Below, piece by piece: positions 38,252-43,438 of a stretch of DNA of 64,000 bases (position 1 is its first letter; each line of letters starts with the position of its first letter). The stretch lies in NCBI GenBank assembly GCA_902622245.1, contig CACNPC010000001.1, positions 248,001 through 312,000 on the forward strand, read 5' to 3'. The position numbers and the translations under genes were made by a program. The stretch is from an uncultured Pelagibacteraceae bacterium. GTDB lineage: Bacteria > Pseudomonadota > Alphaproteobacteria > Pelagibacterales > Pelagibacteraceae. A model generated the notes under the pieces. The model was given only the letters and a program-made list of their open reading frames with translations. It ran no database searches and had not been told where the DNA came from.

Positions 38252-39646
38252 CTATATATTTTTTACTATTTCTTCTGTCATTTTTTTTGCATCTGAAAAT
38301 AACATAAGGGTATTATCTCTATAGAACAAATCGTTATCTATTCCTGCATAACCAGGGGATAAACTTCTTTTAACAAACAACACAGATTTGCTTTTTTCTA
38401 CATCTAAAACTGGCATTCCATATATTGGGCTTTGTGGATCTGTCTTTGCGACTGGGTTAGTAACATCATTTGCTCCAATAACATAAGCTACATCACAATT
38501 TGCAAAATCATTATTAATTTCCTCTAATTCAAAAACCTCATCGTAAGGAACATTCGCCTCTGCAAGAAGAACATTCATGTGGCCAGGCATTCGACCAGCT
38601 ACAGGATGTATTGCATAAGATACTTTTACTCCATTTTTTTTTAATGCATCTACCATTTCTCTAAGTGCATGTTGCGCTTGAGCTACAGCCATACCATAAC
38701 CTGGAACAATTATTACAGATGAAGCATTCTTCATTAAAAAGGCAGCATCATCTGCATTTCCATTTTTTACAGGTTTTTGTTCTTTATCTTTAGAACTGGA
38801 AGTCTCTTCATTTGCACCCCAACCTCCTAATATGACATTAAAAAATGATCTATTCATTCCTTTACACATAATATAAGAAAGAATTGCTCCTGATGATCCA
38901 ACTAATGCTCCAGTAATTATTAAAGCAGTATTTTCTAATGTAAAACCTATCCCTGCAGCAGCCCATCCAGAGTATGAGTTTAACATTGAAATAACAACTG
39001 GCATGTCTGCTCCACCAATTGGAATAATTAATAACAGACCAACTATAAAAGATATTAATACAAGTGACCAAAATACATTAGATGCTTGGGTGTTGCATAA
39101 ATAATAAATTAGAAAAATTATTGTCAATCCTAGTAGCAAATTAAGATAGTGCTGACCTTTGAAGGTTATAGGTGAACCTGACATTATTCCTCTTAATTTT
39201 AAAAATGCGATTATAGAACCAGAAAAAGTTATTGCTCCGATTGCAGCTCCTAAAGACATTTCTATAAGACTTGCAAGCTTTATTTGTCCAACAACCCCTA
39301 AATTAAATGCCTCTGGTTTCAAAAATGCTGATACAGCTACAAATACCGCTGCAAGACCTACTAAACTATGAAATCCAGCAACTAATTCTGGCATTGCTGT
39401 CATTGGTATTCTAAAAGCTATAAATGCCCCAACAGCTCCACCAATCAATAAAAAAATCAATACATAAATAAATCCAGGGCCAAAATTTCCAACGGAAAGA
39501 AAGGTGACAATTATTGAAATAGTCATACCAGCGATTCCAAAATAGTTTCCTTGCCTTGAGGTTTCTGGGGAAGATAATCCCCTTAAAGCTAAAATAAATA
39601 AAATTCCTGAAATTAAATAAAATATTGCTGATAAATTTGCAGACAT
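38252..39646 (-). CDS. pntB: NAD(P) transhydrogenase subunit beta
   Basis: Proton-translocating transhydrogenase beta subunit, which uses the proton gradient to make NADPH from NADH. The 464 residues have an N-terminal region with about nine transmembrane segments (to about residue 260), a linker of charged residues (SSSKDKEQKPVKNGN) and the C-terminal NADP-binding dIII domain with VPGYGMAVAQAQHALREM, HPVAGRMPGHMNVLLAEANV and the final RSLSPGYAGIDNDLFY. Complete. Last gene of the pnt set, 19 bases from the tRNA-fMet end. Confidence 0.96.
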   Translation of the reverse strand: MSANLSAIFYLISGILFILALRGLSSPETSRQGNYFGIAGMTISIIVTFLSVGNFGPGFIYVLIFLLIGGAVGAFIAFRIPMTAMPELVAGFHSLVGLAAVFVAVSAFLKPEAFNLGVVGQIKLASLIEMSLGAAIGAITFSGSIIAFLKLRGIMSGSPITFKGQHYLNLLLGLTIIFLIYYLCNTQASNVFWSLVLISFIVGLLLIIPIGGADMPVVISMLNSYSGWAAAGIGFTLENTALIITGALVGSSGAILSYIMCKGMNRSFFNVILGGWGANEETSSSKDKEQKPVKNGNADDAAFLMKNASSVIIVPGYGMAVAQAQHALREMVDALKKNGVKVSYAIHPVAGRMPGHMNVLLAEANVPYDEVFELEEINNDFANCDVAYVIGANDVTNPVAKTDPQSPIYGMPVLDVEKSKSVLFVKRSLSPGYAGIDNDLFYRDNTLMLFSDAKKMTEEIVKNI

Positions 39647-39648
39647 AA

Positions 39649-39948
39649 TTATTTTTTCTTTTTCTTGTACATTTGAAGCATTCTTTGAGTAACTAAAAAG
39701 CCACCAAAAATATTAACAGCTGCTAAAATTATAGCGAGAAAACCAAATATATTAGAAATTTCAAATATATTATTTGAGCTTGCAAGAGCCGCTATTATTG
39801 CGCCAACAATAATAACTGATGAGATTGCATTTGTAACAGACATGAGTGGAGTATGAAGAGATGGAGTAACACTCCAAACTACATAGTATCCTACAAATAT
39901 TGATAAAATAAATATACTTAGTCTGAATATAAAAGGATCGATTTCCAT
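39649..39948 (-). CDS. pntAB: NAD(P) transhydrogenase alpha subunit, membrane part
   Basis: 99-residue membrane protein that corresponds to the C-terminal membrane segment of E. coli PntA, encoded separately in many alphaproteobacteria (three-subunit transhydrogenase). Three to four hydrophobic helices are seen; the central TPSLHTPLMSVTNAISSVI motif is the conserved dII signature. It shares one base with pntAA and lies 2 bases before pntB, so strict stoichiometric co-expression is likely. Confidence 0.95.
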   Translation of the reverse strand: MEIDPFIFRLSIFILSIFVGYYVVWSVTPSLHTPLMSVTNAISSVIIVGAIIAALASSNNIFEISNIFGFLAIILAAVNIFGGFLVTQRMLQMYKKKKK

Positions 39949-41036
39949 TATTTAACCATTGTTTTTTCTATTATTTCGTCATCTAAATTAATTTCAAAAA
40001 TTTTTTTTTCTTTATTAAATAAGTTTACTATAAAATTAAATATATTTTTTGAGTAAAGATTGGAAGCTGAAACTGGTAAATTATTTAGTATATTTCCTTC
40101 GCCCATAATTTTAACACCATTATTATTAATAATTTTATTAACTTCAGTTAATTCTGCATTGCCACCTTGTGAAGCTGCCAAATCATAAATTATTGAACCA
40201 TTTTGCATATCGTTAATCATTTCTTTTTTAATTATAAGTGGGGCTTTTTTTCCTGGAATTAACGCAGTGCATATTACAATATCAATTTTTTTTAGAGTTT
40301 CTCTTAGTAAATCCTCCTGTTTTTTTTTAAAGTCCTCTGAGGTTTCTTTTGCATAACCTCCTTCAGTTTCTAAATTTTCTGCCCCTTCCACTGTTAAAAA
40401 TTTACCACCTAGACTTTCAACTTGTTCTTTTGATGCTGATCTTACATCTGTAGCAAAAACAATAGCTCCTAATCTTTTAGCAGTTGCAATTGCTTGTAAA
40501 CCTGCAACACCGGCGCCAACAACCAATACTTTAGCAGCCGAAATAGTACCCGCTGCAGTCATCATCATAGGTATTGCTCTTTGATAATAAGCAAAAGAGT
40601 CAACCACAGCCTTATATCCCGCTAAATTTGCTTGAGAAGATAAAACATCCATAGATTGCGCTCTGGTTATTCTTGGCAAAAGTTCCATTGAAAAACAGGT
40701 AATATTTTTTTTTATAATTTCTTTTAATTTTTCCTTATTATTGTAAGGGTTTAATATGCCAATAAAAATTTGTTTGCTTCTTAGTTTGTTTAAATTATCG
40801 TCGGTTAAGATATTCATTTGTGCAATAACATTTGAATTAGATAATACTTCATCGTTACTGTTTAAAATGTTTGCTCCCTCCGATTTATATTGTTCGTCGT
40901 TGTAACCTAAATGGGTGGCATAATCTTTACATAAATAAATTTCTAGTCCTAAAGATTTATATTTTTTTACAATTTCAGGAGTTATAGCAACTCTTTTTTC
41001 AATTTTCTTATCTTCAGTTATTGATCCTATTATCAT
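39948..41036 (-). CDS. pntAA: NAD(P) transhydrogenase alpha subunit, NAD-binding part
   Basis: Soluble dI domain that binds NAD(H). 362 residues related to alanine dehydrogenase, with EKRVAITPEIVKKYKSLGL at the start, the dinucleotide-binding VLVVGAGVAGLQAIATAKRL and the RSASKEQVESLGGKF stretch. The split into PntAA and PntAB is the alphaproteobacterial arrangement. Its ATG overlaps nothing but is one base from the coxIV-like stop (TAATATG). Confidence 0.96.
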   Translation of the reverse strand: MIIGSITEDKKIEKRVAITPEIVKKYKSLGLEIYLCKDYATHLGYNDEQYKSEGANILNSNDEVLSNSNVIAQMNILTDDNLNKLRSKQIFIGILNPYNNKEKLKEIIKKNITCFSMELLPRITRAQSMDVLSSQANLAGYKAVVDSFAYYQRAIPMMMTAAGTISAAKVLVVGAGVAGLQAIATAKRLGAIVFATDVRSASKEQVESLGGKFLTVEGAENLETEGGYAKETSEDFKKKQEDLLRETLKKIDIVICTALIPGKKAPLIIKKEMINDMQNGSIIYDLAASQGGNAELTEVNKIINNNGVKIMGEGNILNNLPVSASNLYSKNIFNFIVNLFNKEKKIFEINLDDEIIEKTMVK

Positions 41037-41037
41037 A

Positions 41038-41148
41038 TTACAAAAGAAATATTGCCATTAGAATTAAAACAACAACTACAGCAATTGACCCCCAAAGAAC
41101 AAATTTAGTAAAATTATTCCAGGTATTTTTATGGCTTTCGTTATCCAT
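41038..41148 (-). CDS. Small aa3-type cytochrome c oxidase subunit IV-like membrane protein
   Basis: 36-residue ORF, too short for normal gene-length cut-offs. Sequence begins MDNESHKNTWNNFTKFVLWG and continues with one transmembrane helix rich in Val/Leu/Ile. This matches the pattern of alphaproteobacterial aa3-type oxidase subunit IV (short soluble head with TWxxF, then one helix), and that family is frequently found directly upstream of pntA. It is packed between rpmJ (7-base gap) and pntAA (1-base gap). The oxidase role is inferred from resemblance and context. Confidence 0.72.
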   Translation of the reverse strand: MDNESHKNTWNNFTKFVLWGSIAVVVVLILMAIFLL

Positions 41149-41284: not shown

Positions 41285-42172
41285 TTAAATTTTCAGTTTT
41301 TTAATAAACGAACTTACGTAATCTTTCAAATTTATTTTTCCATAATATCTTCTTACTTTGTTATTATATGCTATATTCGTCAAAGCAGAGGCATATCTTT
41401 CGCCTGATCTTGGTGGTAAATATCTTATTTTTGATCCAAACATTTTTGCCACATCTTTTATTGAGTATGATTTCTTATGACTAATACTGTAATGCCTGCA
41501 TCTATTTAATTTCCAGGCTTTCAAACAAATTTCAATGGTATCAGTAATATGAGTGAATCTTCTTGTTTGCGTACCTGGTTTTACAATAGTAAGAGGCTTC
41601 TGATTAATATATTGATGTTGAAAAATTCCAATTACAGTTGCCATTGCACCTGTTTGAATTTGCTTCTCTCCATACACATTATAAAAATAAATTACCTCAA
41701 ATTTAAAATCAAACCACTTTTTTAAATTTTCTAATAATTCTAGATTTTTTGATTTAGTAAAAGCATATGGAGATAAATTTTTGTCGTTACCACGATTTCC
41801 CAATGTTGCTGAGGTTGCTGAGTAAATTAATTTAATTTTATTTTCAAGGCAAAACTTAAATACCTCTTGGGTACCCAAAGAATTTGACTCAAAACATTTG
41901 TCAAAATTTTTAAAACTTTGATAAATTCTAGAAAATTCTCCAAAATGAAATAATGAAAGTATCTTAGATTTTTTTTTTTTTAAAATTTTTGAAATATTAG
42001 TAGTTTGTCCTTTTAAATATTTAACTTTTTTATTTTTTATATGATTTTTTTTTGAACCTGAGGAATAATTATCAATACTTATAATTTTATAATTTGTTTT
42101 TTTTAATAATGCTTTGATTAAATTTGCACCTACAAAACCTGCACCACCAGTTACTATAAGTAGATTTTTCAT
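41285..42172 (-). CDS. NAD-dependent nucleotide-sugar epimerase/dehydratase (GalE-like SDR)
   Basis: Extended short-chain dehydrogenase, 295 residues. The Rossmann motif is TGGAGFVGANL at residue 8, with acidic Asp in SIDNYSSGS, catalytic Ser/Thr in SATSATLG and YxxxK as YAFTK. RRFTHITDTIEICLKAW and YLPPRSGERYAS match UDP-hexose 4-epimerase-type enzymes. The substrate is not determined. It starts 8 bases after the 3' end of the 5S rRNA and ends 3 bases before rpmJ, so this surface-sugar type gene lies on the core side of the island boundary and may be co-transcribed with the 5S rRNA. Confidence 0.85.
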   Translation of the reverse strand: MKNLLIVTGGAGFVGANLIKALLKKTNYKIISIDNYSSGSKKNHIKNKKVKYLKGQTTNISKILKKKKSKILSLFHFGEFSRIYQSFKNFDKCFESNSLGTQEVFKFCLENKIKLIYSATSATLGNRGNDKNLSPYAFTKSKNLELLENLKKWFDFKFEVIYFYNVYGEKQIQTGAMATVIGIFQHQYINQKPLTIVKPGTQTRRFTHITDTIEICLKAWKLNRCRHYSISHKKSYSIKDVAKMFGSKIRYLPPRSGERYASALTNIAYNNKVRRYYGKINLKDYVSSFIKKLKI

Positions 42173-42180
42173 TTAGATTA

Positions 42181-42296
42181 GCCTGGCAATGTCCTACTCT
42201 TCCAAGTCTTAAGACTAAGTACCATCGGCGCAGAAAGGCTTGACTTCCGAGTTCGGTATGGGATCGGGTATGACCCTTTCGCAATAATCACCAGGC
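42181..42296 (-). rRNA. rrf: 5S ribosomal RNA, detached from the rrn operon
   Basis: 116-nt gene. Terminal helix arms GCCTGG (5') and CCAGGC (3') pair; internal blocks GGGTCATACCCGATCCCATA, CCGAACTCGGAAGTCAAGCC and GCGCCGATGGTACT are canonical 5S elements. No 23S rRNA lies upstream: the next 21.7 kb on that side are polysaccharide genes. This is the arrangement described for SAR11, where HVR2 separates 23S from 5S. The exact ends may differ by a base or two. Confidence 0.96.
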
Positions 42297-42302
42297 ACAA
42301 AA

Positions 42303-42331
42303 CATATACAAAGGTAATTTATTGATGTCAA
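42303..42331 (-). promoter_or_regulatory. Predicted dedicated sigma70-type promoter of the 5S rRNA
   Basis: On the minus strand, a perfect TTGACA (42326-42331), a 17-base spacer (42309-42325) and TATATG (42303-42308). The first base of the 5S gene, 42296, is 7 bases past the -10, which is the standard initiation distance, so transcription could begin at or near the mature 5' end. It is the best -35 with ideal spacing found in the window. Confidence 0.75.
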
Positions 42332-42388
42332 TTGTAATAAACATATATTTAATTGGTAAAATTCAAATATTTTATTAAATATTTCTTA

Positions 42389-43438
42389 GTGAAAAAAAAA
42401 AAAATATTATTAGTTACTGGTTCTACAGGTTTAATTGGATCTGAAATAGTATATGAACTTAACAAGGAATATGACGTTGTTTATGGTATAGACAATAATG
42501 AGAGGTCAAAATATTTTGGTAGTCAGGGTAGTACTAGCAAAATTAAAAGTTTTTTAATTAAAAATATTAAAAATTATAAACACTTAGATCTAGATATTTC
42601 AAATAAGAAAAAAGTATTTGATTTAATAGACAGTATAAAGCCAAATAATGTTGTTCATTGTGCAGCTCAACCAAGTCATGATACTGCAGCCAGAATTCCT
42701 ATCAGAGACTTTGAAGTAAATGCATTTTCTACTTTAAATTTAATGGAAGCGTTAAGAAAAAAATCAAAAAATTCTAGCGTAATTTATTTTTCAACGAATA
42801 AAGTATACGGAGATAATCCGAATAAGATAAAATTGAAAGAAAAGAAAAAGAGATATGATTATTTACAAAAAAAGTACAGGAATGGAATCAATGAAAGTTT
42901 CAGTATAGATAATTGCTTACATTCCCTATTTGGAGCTTCTAAATTATCAGGTGATATAATAGTACAAGAATATGGACGATATTTTGATATGAAAACAACT
43001 TGTCTACGGGGAGGTTGTTTGACTGGTCCAAATCAATCAGGTGTAGAACAACATGGTTTTTTAAATTATTTGGTTAAATGTAATTTAAATAGAAAGTCAT
43101 ATACCATTAATGGTTACAAGGGCAAACAAGTCAGAGACAATATACATTCAAAAGATATAACAAATTTTGTAAAATTGTTTTTTGAATATCCGAGAATTGC
43201 AGAGATATATAACATAGGTGGAGGAAGATCCAACTCTATTTCGATCTTAGAGGCAATTGAATTAATTGAAAAAAAAACAGGAAAAAAAATGATATACAAC
43301 TATAGAAATGTACCAAGAATTGGGGACCACATATGTTATATAAGTGACTTACGAAAAATTAAGAAGCATTATCCAAAATGGGAAATAAAATATAGCTTAA
43401 GTGCAATAATTGATGATTTGATAAATGGTTTAATGTGA
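42389..43438 (+). CDS. CDP-paratose 2-epimerase (CDP-tyvelose synthase)-like SDR
   Basis: Extended SDR of the RfbE/Tyv type, interconverting C2 epimers of CDP-3,6-dideoxyhexoses. Typical blocks: TGSTGLIGSE at the start, GIDNNERSKYFG, HCAAQPSHDTAARIP, STNKVYGDNPN, SLFGASKLSGDIIVQEYGRY, CLRGGCLTGPNQSG and GYKGKQVRDNIHS. The catalytic pair is the unusual SLFGASK version, in which Phe stands near the usual Tyr, as I recall for this family. I take the GTG at 42389 (followed by 13 A) as start, since the longer frame from a TTG at 42353 adds an unrelated Lys/Phe stretch. No CDP-glucose synthase or 4,6-dehydratase is in view, so the real substrate may differ. Confidence 0.75.
   Translation: MKKKKILLVTGSTGLIGSEIVYELNKEYDVVYGIDNNERSKYFGSQGSTSKIKSFLIKNIKNYKHLDLDISNKKKVFDLIDSIKPNNVVHCAAQPSHDTAARIPIRDFEVNAFSTLNLMEALRKKSKNSSVIYFSTNKVYGDNPNKIKLKEKKKRYDYLQKKYRNGINESFSIDNCLHSLFGASKLSGDIIVQEYGRYFDMKTTCLRGGCLTGPNQSGVEQHGFLNYLVKCNLNRKSYTINGYKGKQVRDNIHSKDITNFVKLFFEYPRIAEIYNIGGGRSNSISILEAIELIEKKTGKKMIYNYRNVPRIGDHICYISDLRKIKKHYPKWEIKYSLSAIIDDLINGLM

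Follow-up and report, generated by a model that had tools for sequence, protein, structure and literature searches.

Once a set of ribosomal RNA genes has been split, 5S has to be balanced against 16S and 23S by some other means. How SAR11, the commonest bacteria of the ocean, might do so is the question raised by this locus, and the answer that we suggest is two promoters of one design. The window (the whole 64,000-nt stretch analysed, bases 248001–312000 of contig C1 in a 1.34-Mb assembly of 17 contigs) holds a 5S gene at 42181–42296 on the minus strand, where a first-pass annotation had put it; a full-model RF00001 match covers 42181–42295 (minus strand, 91.2 bits) and is the sole 5S match in the assembly, each SAR11 genome with a 5S match in this analysis having one. 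The same annotation saw polysaccharide genes in place of a 23S upstream, which our scans bear out. No 23S lies in the window or in the other 21.4 kb of the contig, which are free of N, so at least 43 kb separate 5S from 23S; from 24 upstream ORFs of at least 90 aa, 17 were scanned, giving 12 in sugar-nucleotide or glycosyl-transfer families, three other enzymes and two without a family. A 23S search of the whole assembly came back empty, which proves little because the search also missed 23S in 7/18 relatives, five of them single-contig. Where a single contig holds 5S and 23S together, which is so in six relatives (G154, G107, G205, G203, G201 and G207), 23S lies about 46–62 kb upstream of 5S on the same strand. 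A 5S parted from 23S by a surface-polysaccharide island, as found here, is the split rrn arrangement of SAR11 at HVR2. Some genomes (for example G011, G065, G075, G078, G095, G012 and G082) give part-only 16S matches, with one break near model position 873, or, among certain single-contig genomes, no 23S match; this may be a masking, assembly or filter effect.

Directly before the 5S gene, on the minus strand, stand a −35 hexamer TTGACA (42326–42331), a 17-base spacer and a −10 hexamer TATATG (42303–42308) with no T at −7, just as first annotated. An A/T-biased, weakly UP-element-like stretch at 42338–42350 (minus strand) corresponds to about −42 to −54, where family columns −54 to −52, like columns −41 to −40, hold 0.17–0.29 bits against at most 0.14 in 55 flank columns. 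TTGACA-N17-TATATG has one exact match in the window, at the 5S. With up to two mismatches the pattern is not enriched within the window (10 found versus 14.4 expected), so the case rests on position and conservation; scanning the window for the consensus was discarded as promoter evidence, being uninformative in such AT-rich DNA. The family form, with a spacer of 16 or 17 and most often a TATAA that has A, G or C behind it as the −10, is stronger than the window's own −10 and T-rich discriminator.

Conservation was assessed in the family with unlinked 5S, where 5S matches came from 195 genomes and 171 loci were taken (24 left out irrespective of upstream sequence), 170 of them distinct when compared over the final 80 upstream bases, and in a sister family with 23S and 5S joined, from which 27/30 loci were taken. 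These counts rest on genomes with a 5S match; 58/201 and 28/117 had none, many being incomplete. Matches to 5S and to rpmJ are both lacking in two genomes of genus g4 in the same family, G229 and G291 (given as 99% and 95% complete), whose assemblies may be missing the HVR2 edge. The zone before each 5S was scored for TTKACA, a spacer of 16–18 and TATAA (11 points, threshold 9); the scorer, with its TTK and threshold of 9, was set after viewing the sequences, and the same scoring was applied to shuffles, to distant windows and to the linked family. At the expected place, 160 of the 170 distinct upstreams (relatives, and so not independent events) reach at least 9 and 129 reach at least 10, the remaining ten scoring only 8. 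Ten control windows further upstream give 4–21 loci at 9 or more and 0–3 at 10 or more (n = 170; 169 in the last two), and when the last 60 bases are shuffled 50 times, 17.4 loci on average and never more than 26 reach 9. No linked upstream reaches 9 (0/27, best 8). Members of the sister family in which both models matched, G204 and G222, have 23S–5S gaps of 89 and 96 nt; the 27 upstreams are alike, with a stretch around GTATTGATTTCACGTTTTGTTGA, and all were therefore taken as linked. This conserved stretch before the linked 5S (L164–L190) is possibly a processing site.

Ten of the 12 hexamer columns hold 0.6–1.5 bits (the best 1.0–1.5) at scorer-chosen sites, compared with the low values of the 55 flank columns given above. 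When flanks from −200 to −45 were clustered by BLAST, they fell into 69 clusters, 54 of them singletons; the motif is kept in 63/69 clusters (median) and in 48/54 singletons, whose flanks have no detectable similarity. The first-pass annotation had proposed checking whether the hexamers are kept across SAR11 while the flanking island differs. Such is the behaviour of the general motif; the exact TTGACA-N17-TATATG proved not to be the common form, the −35 reading TTTACA in 109/170 versus TTGACA in 10/170. A scan of genome records for 5S–rpmJ adjacency returned at least 120 stretches, the 80 listed titles all being Pelagibacteraceae, Pelagibacter or Pelagibacterales; 117 of those 120 loci had a 5S and enough upstream sequence, and all 86 that were distinct and new score at least 9, a set that was picked by adjacency alone and is uninformative on other arrangements. 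A −35 and a −10, 16–18 bases apart and conserved above their flanks, thus lie directly upstream of the unlinked 5S, stay as its neighbours change and are absent from all 27 linked loci. The annotation's private promoter is thereby strengthened: the SAR11 5S very probably has its own sigma70-type promoter.

The start that this promoter predicts falls on the RNA's own edge. In the window the predicted first base is G42296 (minus strand), 7 nt after the −10 and the first paired base of helix I, which fits the sigma70 rule of 6–8 nt. Across the 170 loci the offset between predicted start and first paired base is 0 in 114, +1 in 48, −1 in 5 and elsewhere in 3, so the placement noted in the annotation, with initiation predicted on or next to the 5S 5′ end, is kept to within one base in 167/170; the first paired base is G in 169/170. 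The annotation's proposal that 5′ processing becomes unnecessary goes no further than what the motif predicts; maturation of the 3′ end would still be required.

On the downstream side the first-pass annotation was silent. Here the strand that carries the 5S has an ORF beginning 8 nt downstream of it, encoding an NAD-dependent sugar epimerase (41285–42172; PF01370, 4.3e-29), and behind it, all on the minus strand, come rpmJ for type B ribosomal protein L36 (41156–41281; PF00444, 2e-16; NF002021, 9.2e-22), a 36-aa aa3 oxidase subunit IV-like protein (41038–41148; PF07835, 3.4e-12), pntAA for the transhydrogenase alpha part (39948–41036; PF01262, PF05222), pntAB for the 4TM part (39649–39948; PF12769) and pntB (38252–39646; PF02233, 7.2e-197), which ends this gapless run. 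From 5S to pntAA the gaps are, in order, 8, 3, 7 and 1 nt; pntAA and pntAB overlap by 1 nt, and 2 nt separate pntAB from pntB. The Rfam 'pntA sRNA' RF01810 (41091–41149, minus strand) lies almost wholly within the 36-aa gene. Across 120 distinct copies of that gene, single-base codon differences from the consensus are synonymous in 935 cases versus 288 that are not, so the conservation of RF01810 is partly protein coding.

The same genes recur across the family. The 170 loci form three groups, with rpmJ directly after 5S in 105 (gap 6–25 nt), the epimerase in 58 and something else in 7. Among the 57 epimerase loci with a full ORF, the gap from 5S is 6–15 nt in 55 and 26 and 28 nt in the other two, and rpmJ follows the epimerase in 52, overlapping or within 8 nt in 45, at 42–45 nt in 6 and at 806 nt in one. 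Downstream of 5S, rpmJ then pntA occurs in 160/170, with the small coxIV-like gene detected between them in 123 of these. The seven other loci (L045, L068, L075, L076, L108, L158 and L159, of which L068, L075 and L076 look closely related) have other DNA after the 5S or an rpmJ pointing away, and keep the promoter with scores of 9–10. A same-family epimerase gene stands upstream of 5S in 49 loci; under a stricter test (a full ORF ending no more than 260 nt before 5S, at least 50% identical to a downstream one) the number is 41, so the 5S piece and the epimerase occur in both orders. In the linked family rpmJ is elsewhere, apparently behind another ORF (matches in 10/11 genomes searched), and neither pntA nor coxIV was matched in the flanks examined at an E-value below 0.05.

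Altogether a protein gene starts 6–28 nt after the 5S in 163/170 loci, and the output of 5S is thus probably tied to that of the gene behind it. The annotation had supposed that a private promoter would uncouple the 5S level from 16S/23S; the promoter is supported, but the 5S is not free-standing. Between 41000 and 43500 of the window no terminator-like site was found, weak terminators being easily missed. Minimum-free-energy folding of the 5S–epimerase junction was no better than shuffles (z 0.33). An argument from Shine–Dalgarno sites was dropped: an SD-like 4-mer occurs in 2/105 5S–rpmJ spacers, but also in only 2/45 window genes (a hand-picked set of longer ORFs); two loci searched for the 16S anti-SD string both lacked it.

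Where the epimerase intervenes, rpmJ appears to have a promoter of its own. Zone scoring finds a candidate, TTGAAA-N17-TATTAA, inside the epimerase end of the window (41301–41329, minus strand). The equivalent zone scores 9 in 51/57 loci of the 5S–epimerase class, compared with at least 9 in 10/41 of the epimerases upstream of 5S, and the 85 nt before rpmJ score 9 in 48/48 loci with the epimerase abutting rpmJ. The L108 genome has a similar site before rpmJ (locus L252); there, to judge by eye, no more than a short epimerase-like remnant survives. Eleven parted loci scoring 9–10 (L068, L075 and L076 being near-identical in that stretch) had suggested that rpmJ acquires its promoter solely upon separation from 5S, an idea broken by the 48/48 control. 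In the window's class, then, rpmJ–pnt probably also starts on an embedded promoter, which weakens the case for a single operon spanning 5S to pntB in the window. The 8-nt 5S–epimerase junction and the 105 5S–rpmJ junctions are unaffected. For these 105 loci the best site inside 5S plus spacer scores no more than 8 (a score partly lowered by the GC-rich 5S), which makes the 5S promoter the most likely source of rpmJ transcription in this class.

Other accounts of the hexamers have to be weighed against this reading. Chance matches are expected in very AT-rich DNA, and the lack of enrichment within the window alone would suit them; 160/170 loci against 17 by shuffling, a fixed position and none in the 27 linked upstreams contradict such an origin, to which we give practically no credence. 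Production of 5S by read-through from the 16S–23S promoter across the island is also rejected as extremely improbable: the six relatives noted above do have 5S downstream of 23S on the same strand, but here the distance is at least 43 kb, the conserved hexamers would be left unexplained and the nearest upstream gene is divergent in 32/170 loci and in the window, where it encodes a sugar epimerase/dehydratase-family ORF (42353–43438, plus strand; PF01370, 2.9e-33) whose opposite strand means that no read-through can reach 5S from that neighbour. It is very unlikely, too, that the promoter belongs to the downstream mRNA and that 5S merely landed between promoter and gene. The constancy of rpmJ then pntA behind 5S (160/170) speaks for that history; against it, the hexamers stay whichever gene follows (rpmJ in 105, epimerase in 58) and remain with 5S in the seven loci with other DNA or an rpmJ pointing away, the predicted start tracks the first 5S base, and the linked family keeps rpmJ elsewhere, with no pntA or coxIV match in the flanks examined.

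The remaining alternatives accept the 5S promoter and differ over its transcript. If it made only 5S, the RNA ending or being cut before the next gene, the protein genes would need embedded promoters of their own. The epimerase class, where rpmJ seems to have one, fits this, but the 105 rpmJ loci have no site of 9 or more inside 5S plus spacer, their 6–25 nt gap is too short for another promoter and the window yielded no terminator-like site; we regard a 5S-only transcript as unlikely. An RNA that starts a few bases upstream and still has its 5′ end trimmed is conceivable but doubtful: the distance from a −10 to the start varies by a few bases in general, but at these loci the distance from −10 to stem stays within one base in 167/170. 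Our preferred reading remains a promoter whose RNA begins with the 5S and continues into the gene behind it.

Matching of the two rRNA units could follow from the form of their promoters. The base after TATAA in 128 intact 5S boxes is A in 65, G in 45, C in 18 and T in none, and among all 170 it is T in 3, against a T content of 35% in the 5S flank; this absence of T at the last −10 position is what marks alphaproteobacterial −7A/C/G promoters of the CarD type. By alignment the 16S promoter reads TTGATT-N16-TATAAG, and 39 of 42 distinct 16S upstreams from the unlinked family hold TTG(A/C)NN, a spacer of 15–18 and TAT(A/T)AN, with TATAAG in 31 and TTGATT in 30. It misfits the 5S scorer, any site of at least 10 being present in 10/44 upstreams, mostly at scattered places. 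Discriminator G+C is 0.38 for 5S versus 0.26 in its flank, and 0.50 for 16S, the window's own being T-rich. The genome carries a DksA-type gene and a CarD gene (L403, 1126–2022, minus strand; 298 aa, with CarD domains within residues 118–269). A lysine-rich N-terminal stretch of about 117 residues precedes the CarD domain. Loss of −7T in most alphaproteobacterial promoters analysed has been tied to CarD (PMC8407463, from the part available), and the promoters so linked have A, C or G at −7 as the 5S promoter does, in a genome that has the CarD gene; the name 'Pelagibacter' is absent from the accessible text of that paper, and action of CarD on the 5S promoter is our extension of it. Given that −7T is missing from the −10 of both the 5S and the 16S promoter, and that both discriminators are raised in G+C, the same cofactors may keep the two units matched. 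After all seven unlinked 23S genes whose 3′ flanks were read (L202–L208), TGCACTGAAAAAA is followed by T's of varying number, perhaps the end of the 16S–23S transcript.

We propose that the SAR11 5S, which the HVR2 polysaccharide island separates from 16S–23S, has a sigma70 promoter of its own, whose RNA starts at the first paired base of helix I or right beside it and probably runs on into the next gene (rpmJ in most loci examined, the sugar epimerase in the window). This would make 5S the leading cistron of an mRNA, to be released by a cut at its 3′ end; L36 would depend on the 5S promoter in the rpmJ class, and in the epimerase class rpmJ would have a second, embedded promoter. The 5S and 16S units may be kept matched by the same polymerase cofactors, CarD and perhaps DksA. 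Initiation, co-transcription, 3′ processing and coordinated control are predictions from sequence, and we consider this explanation as a whole, from own promoter and run-on to dependence or embedding and matched control, to be likely. A further step is more speculative and rather doubtful: that 5S serves as the mRNA's 5′ leader, so that in the majority class the 3′ cut leaves a nearly leaderless L36 mRNA and couples 5S maturation to L36 synthesis, with the epimerase class having the embedded rpmJ promoter and the epimerase in rpmJ's place behind 5S. If true, two large-subunit processes, 5S maturation and L36 synthesis, would be joined through one RNA. Even without this further step the data suggest an odd consequence, one transcript that would carry both a ribosomal RNA and the message for a ribosomal protein. 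Promoter plus 5S make a compact piece whose form is kept as neighbouring genes change, which shows how the island can be exchanged.

Bacterial 5S genes scattered away from 23S are found in Leptospira and some mycoplasmas, where they are thought to have their own promoters, a likeness to SAR11; we know of no fixed 5S–rpmJ arrangement in either. Uncoupled archaeal 5S genes with their own promoters (reviewed in PMC3608112) are likewise transcribed apart from 16S/23S, but on archaeal promoters, and the part of that review available describes no junction with a ribosomal-protein gene. Earlier papers describe the split of SAR11 at HVR2 (Wilhelm et al. 2007, PMC2217521; PMC4053759; PMC12421898; PMC7318151; PMC6018831, all in the portions accessible), and as in the window the sole 5S lies on one side of the polysaccharide island and 16S–23S on the other (PMC2217521); one rRNA operon is reported for subclades IV and V (PMC7318151), and a 5S translocation for one isolate (PMC12421898). 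In the available text the word 'promoter' is absent from PMC2217521, PMC12421898 and PMC7318151, and PMC6018831, which has the phrase '5S rRNA gene operon', uses it for proVWX only. Meyer et al. 2009 (PMC2704228), describing the pntA motif that in the window overlaps the 36-aa protein gene, place rpmJ before it in HTCC1062 and find that the metagenome gene annotated 5′ of it is most often 5S or rmlB; the accessible portion does not treat 5S–rpmJ as a transcription unit, nor does 'promoter' occur there. A search of the open-licence PMC literature found no study of a SAR11 5S promoter, its transcription start site or 5S–rpmJ co-transcription. The 5S–23S split and the presence of 5S and rpmJ near pntA are already known; new here, as far as that search reaches, are the predicted 5S promoter and the probable co-transcription of 5S with rpmJ.
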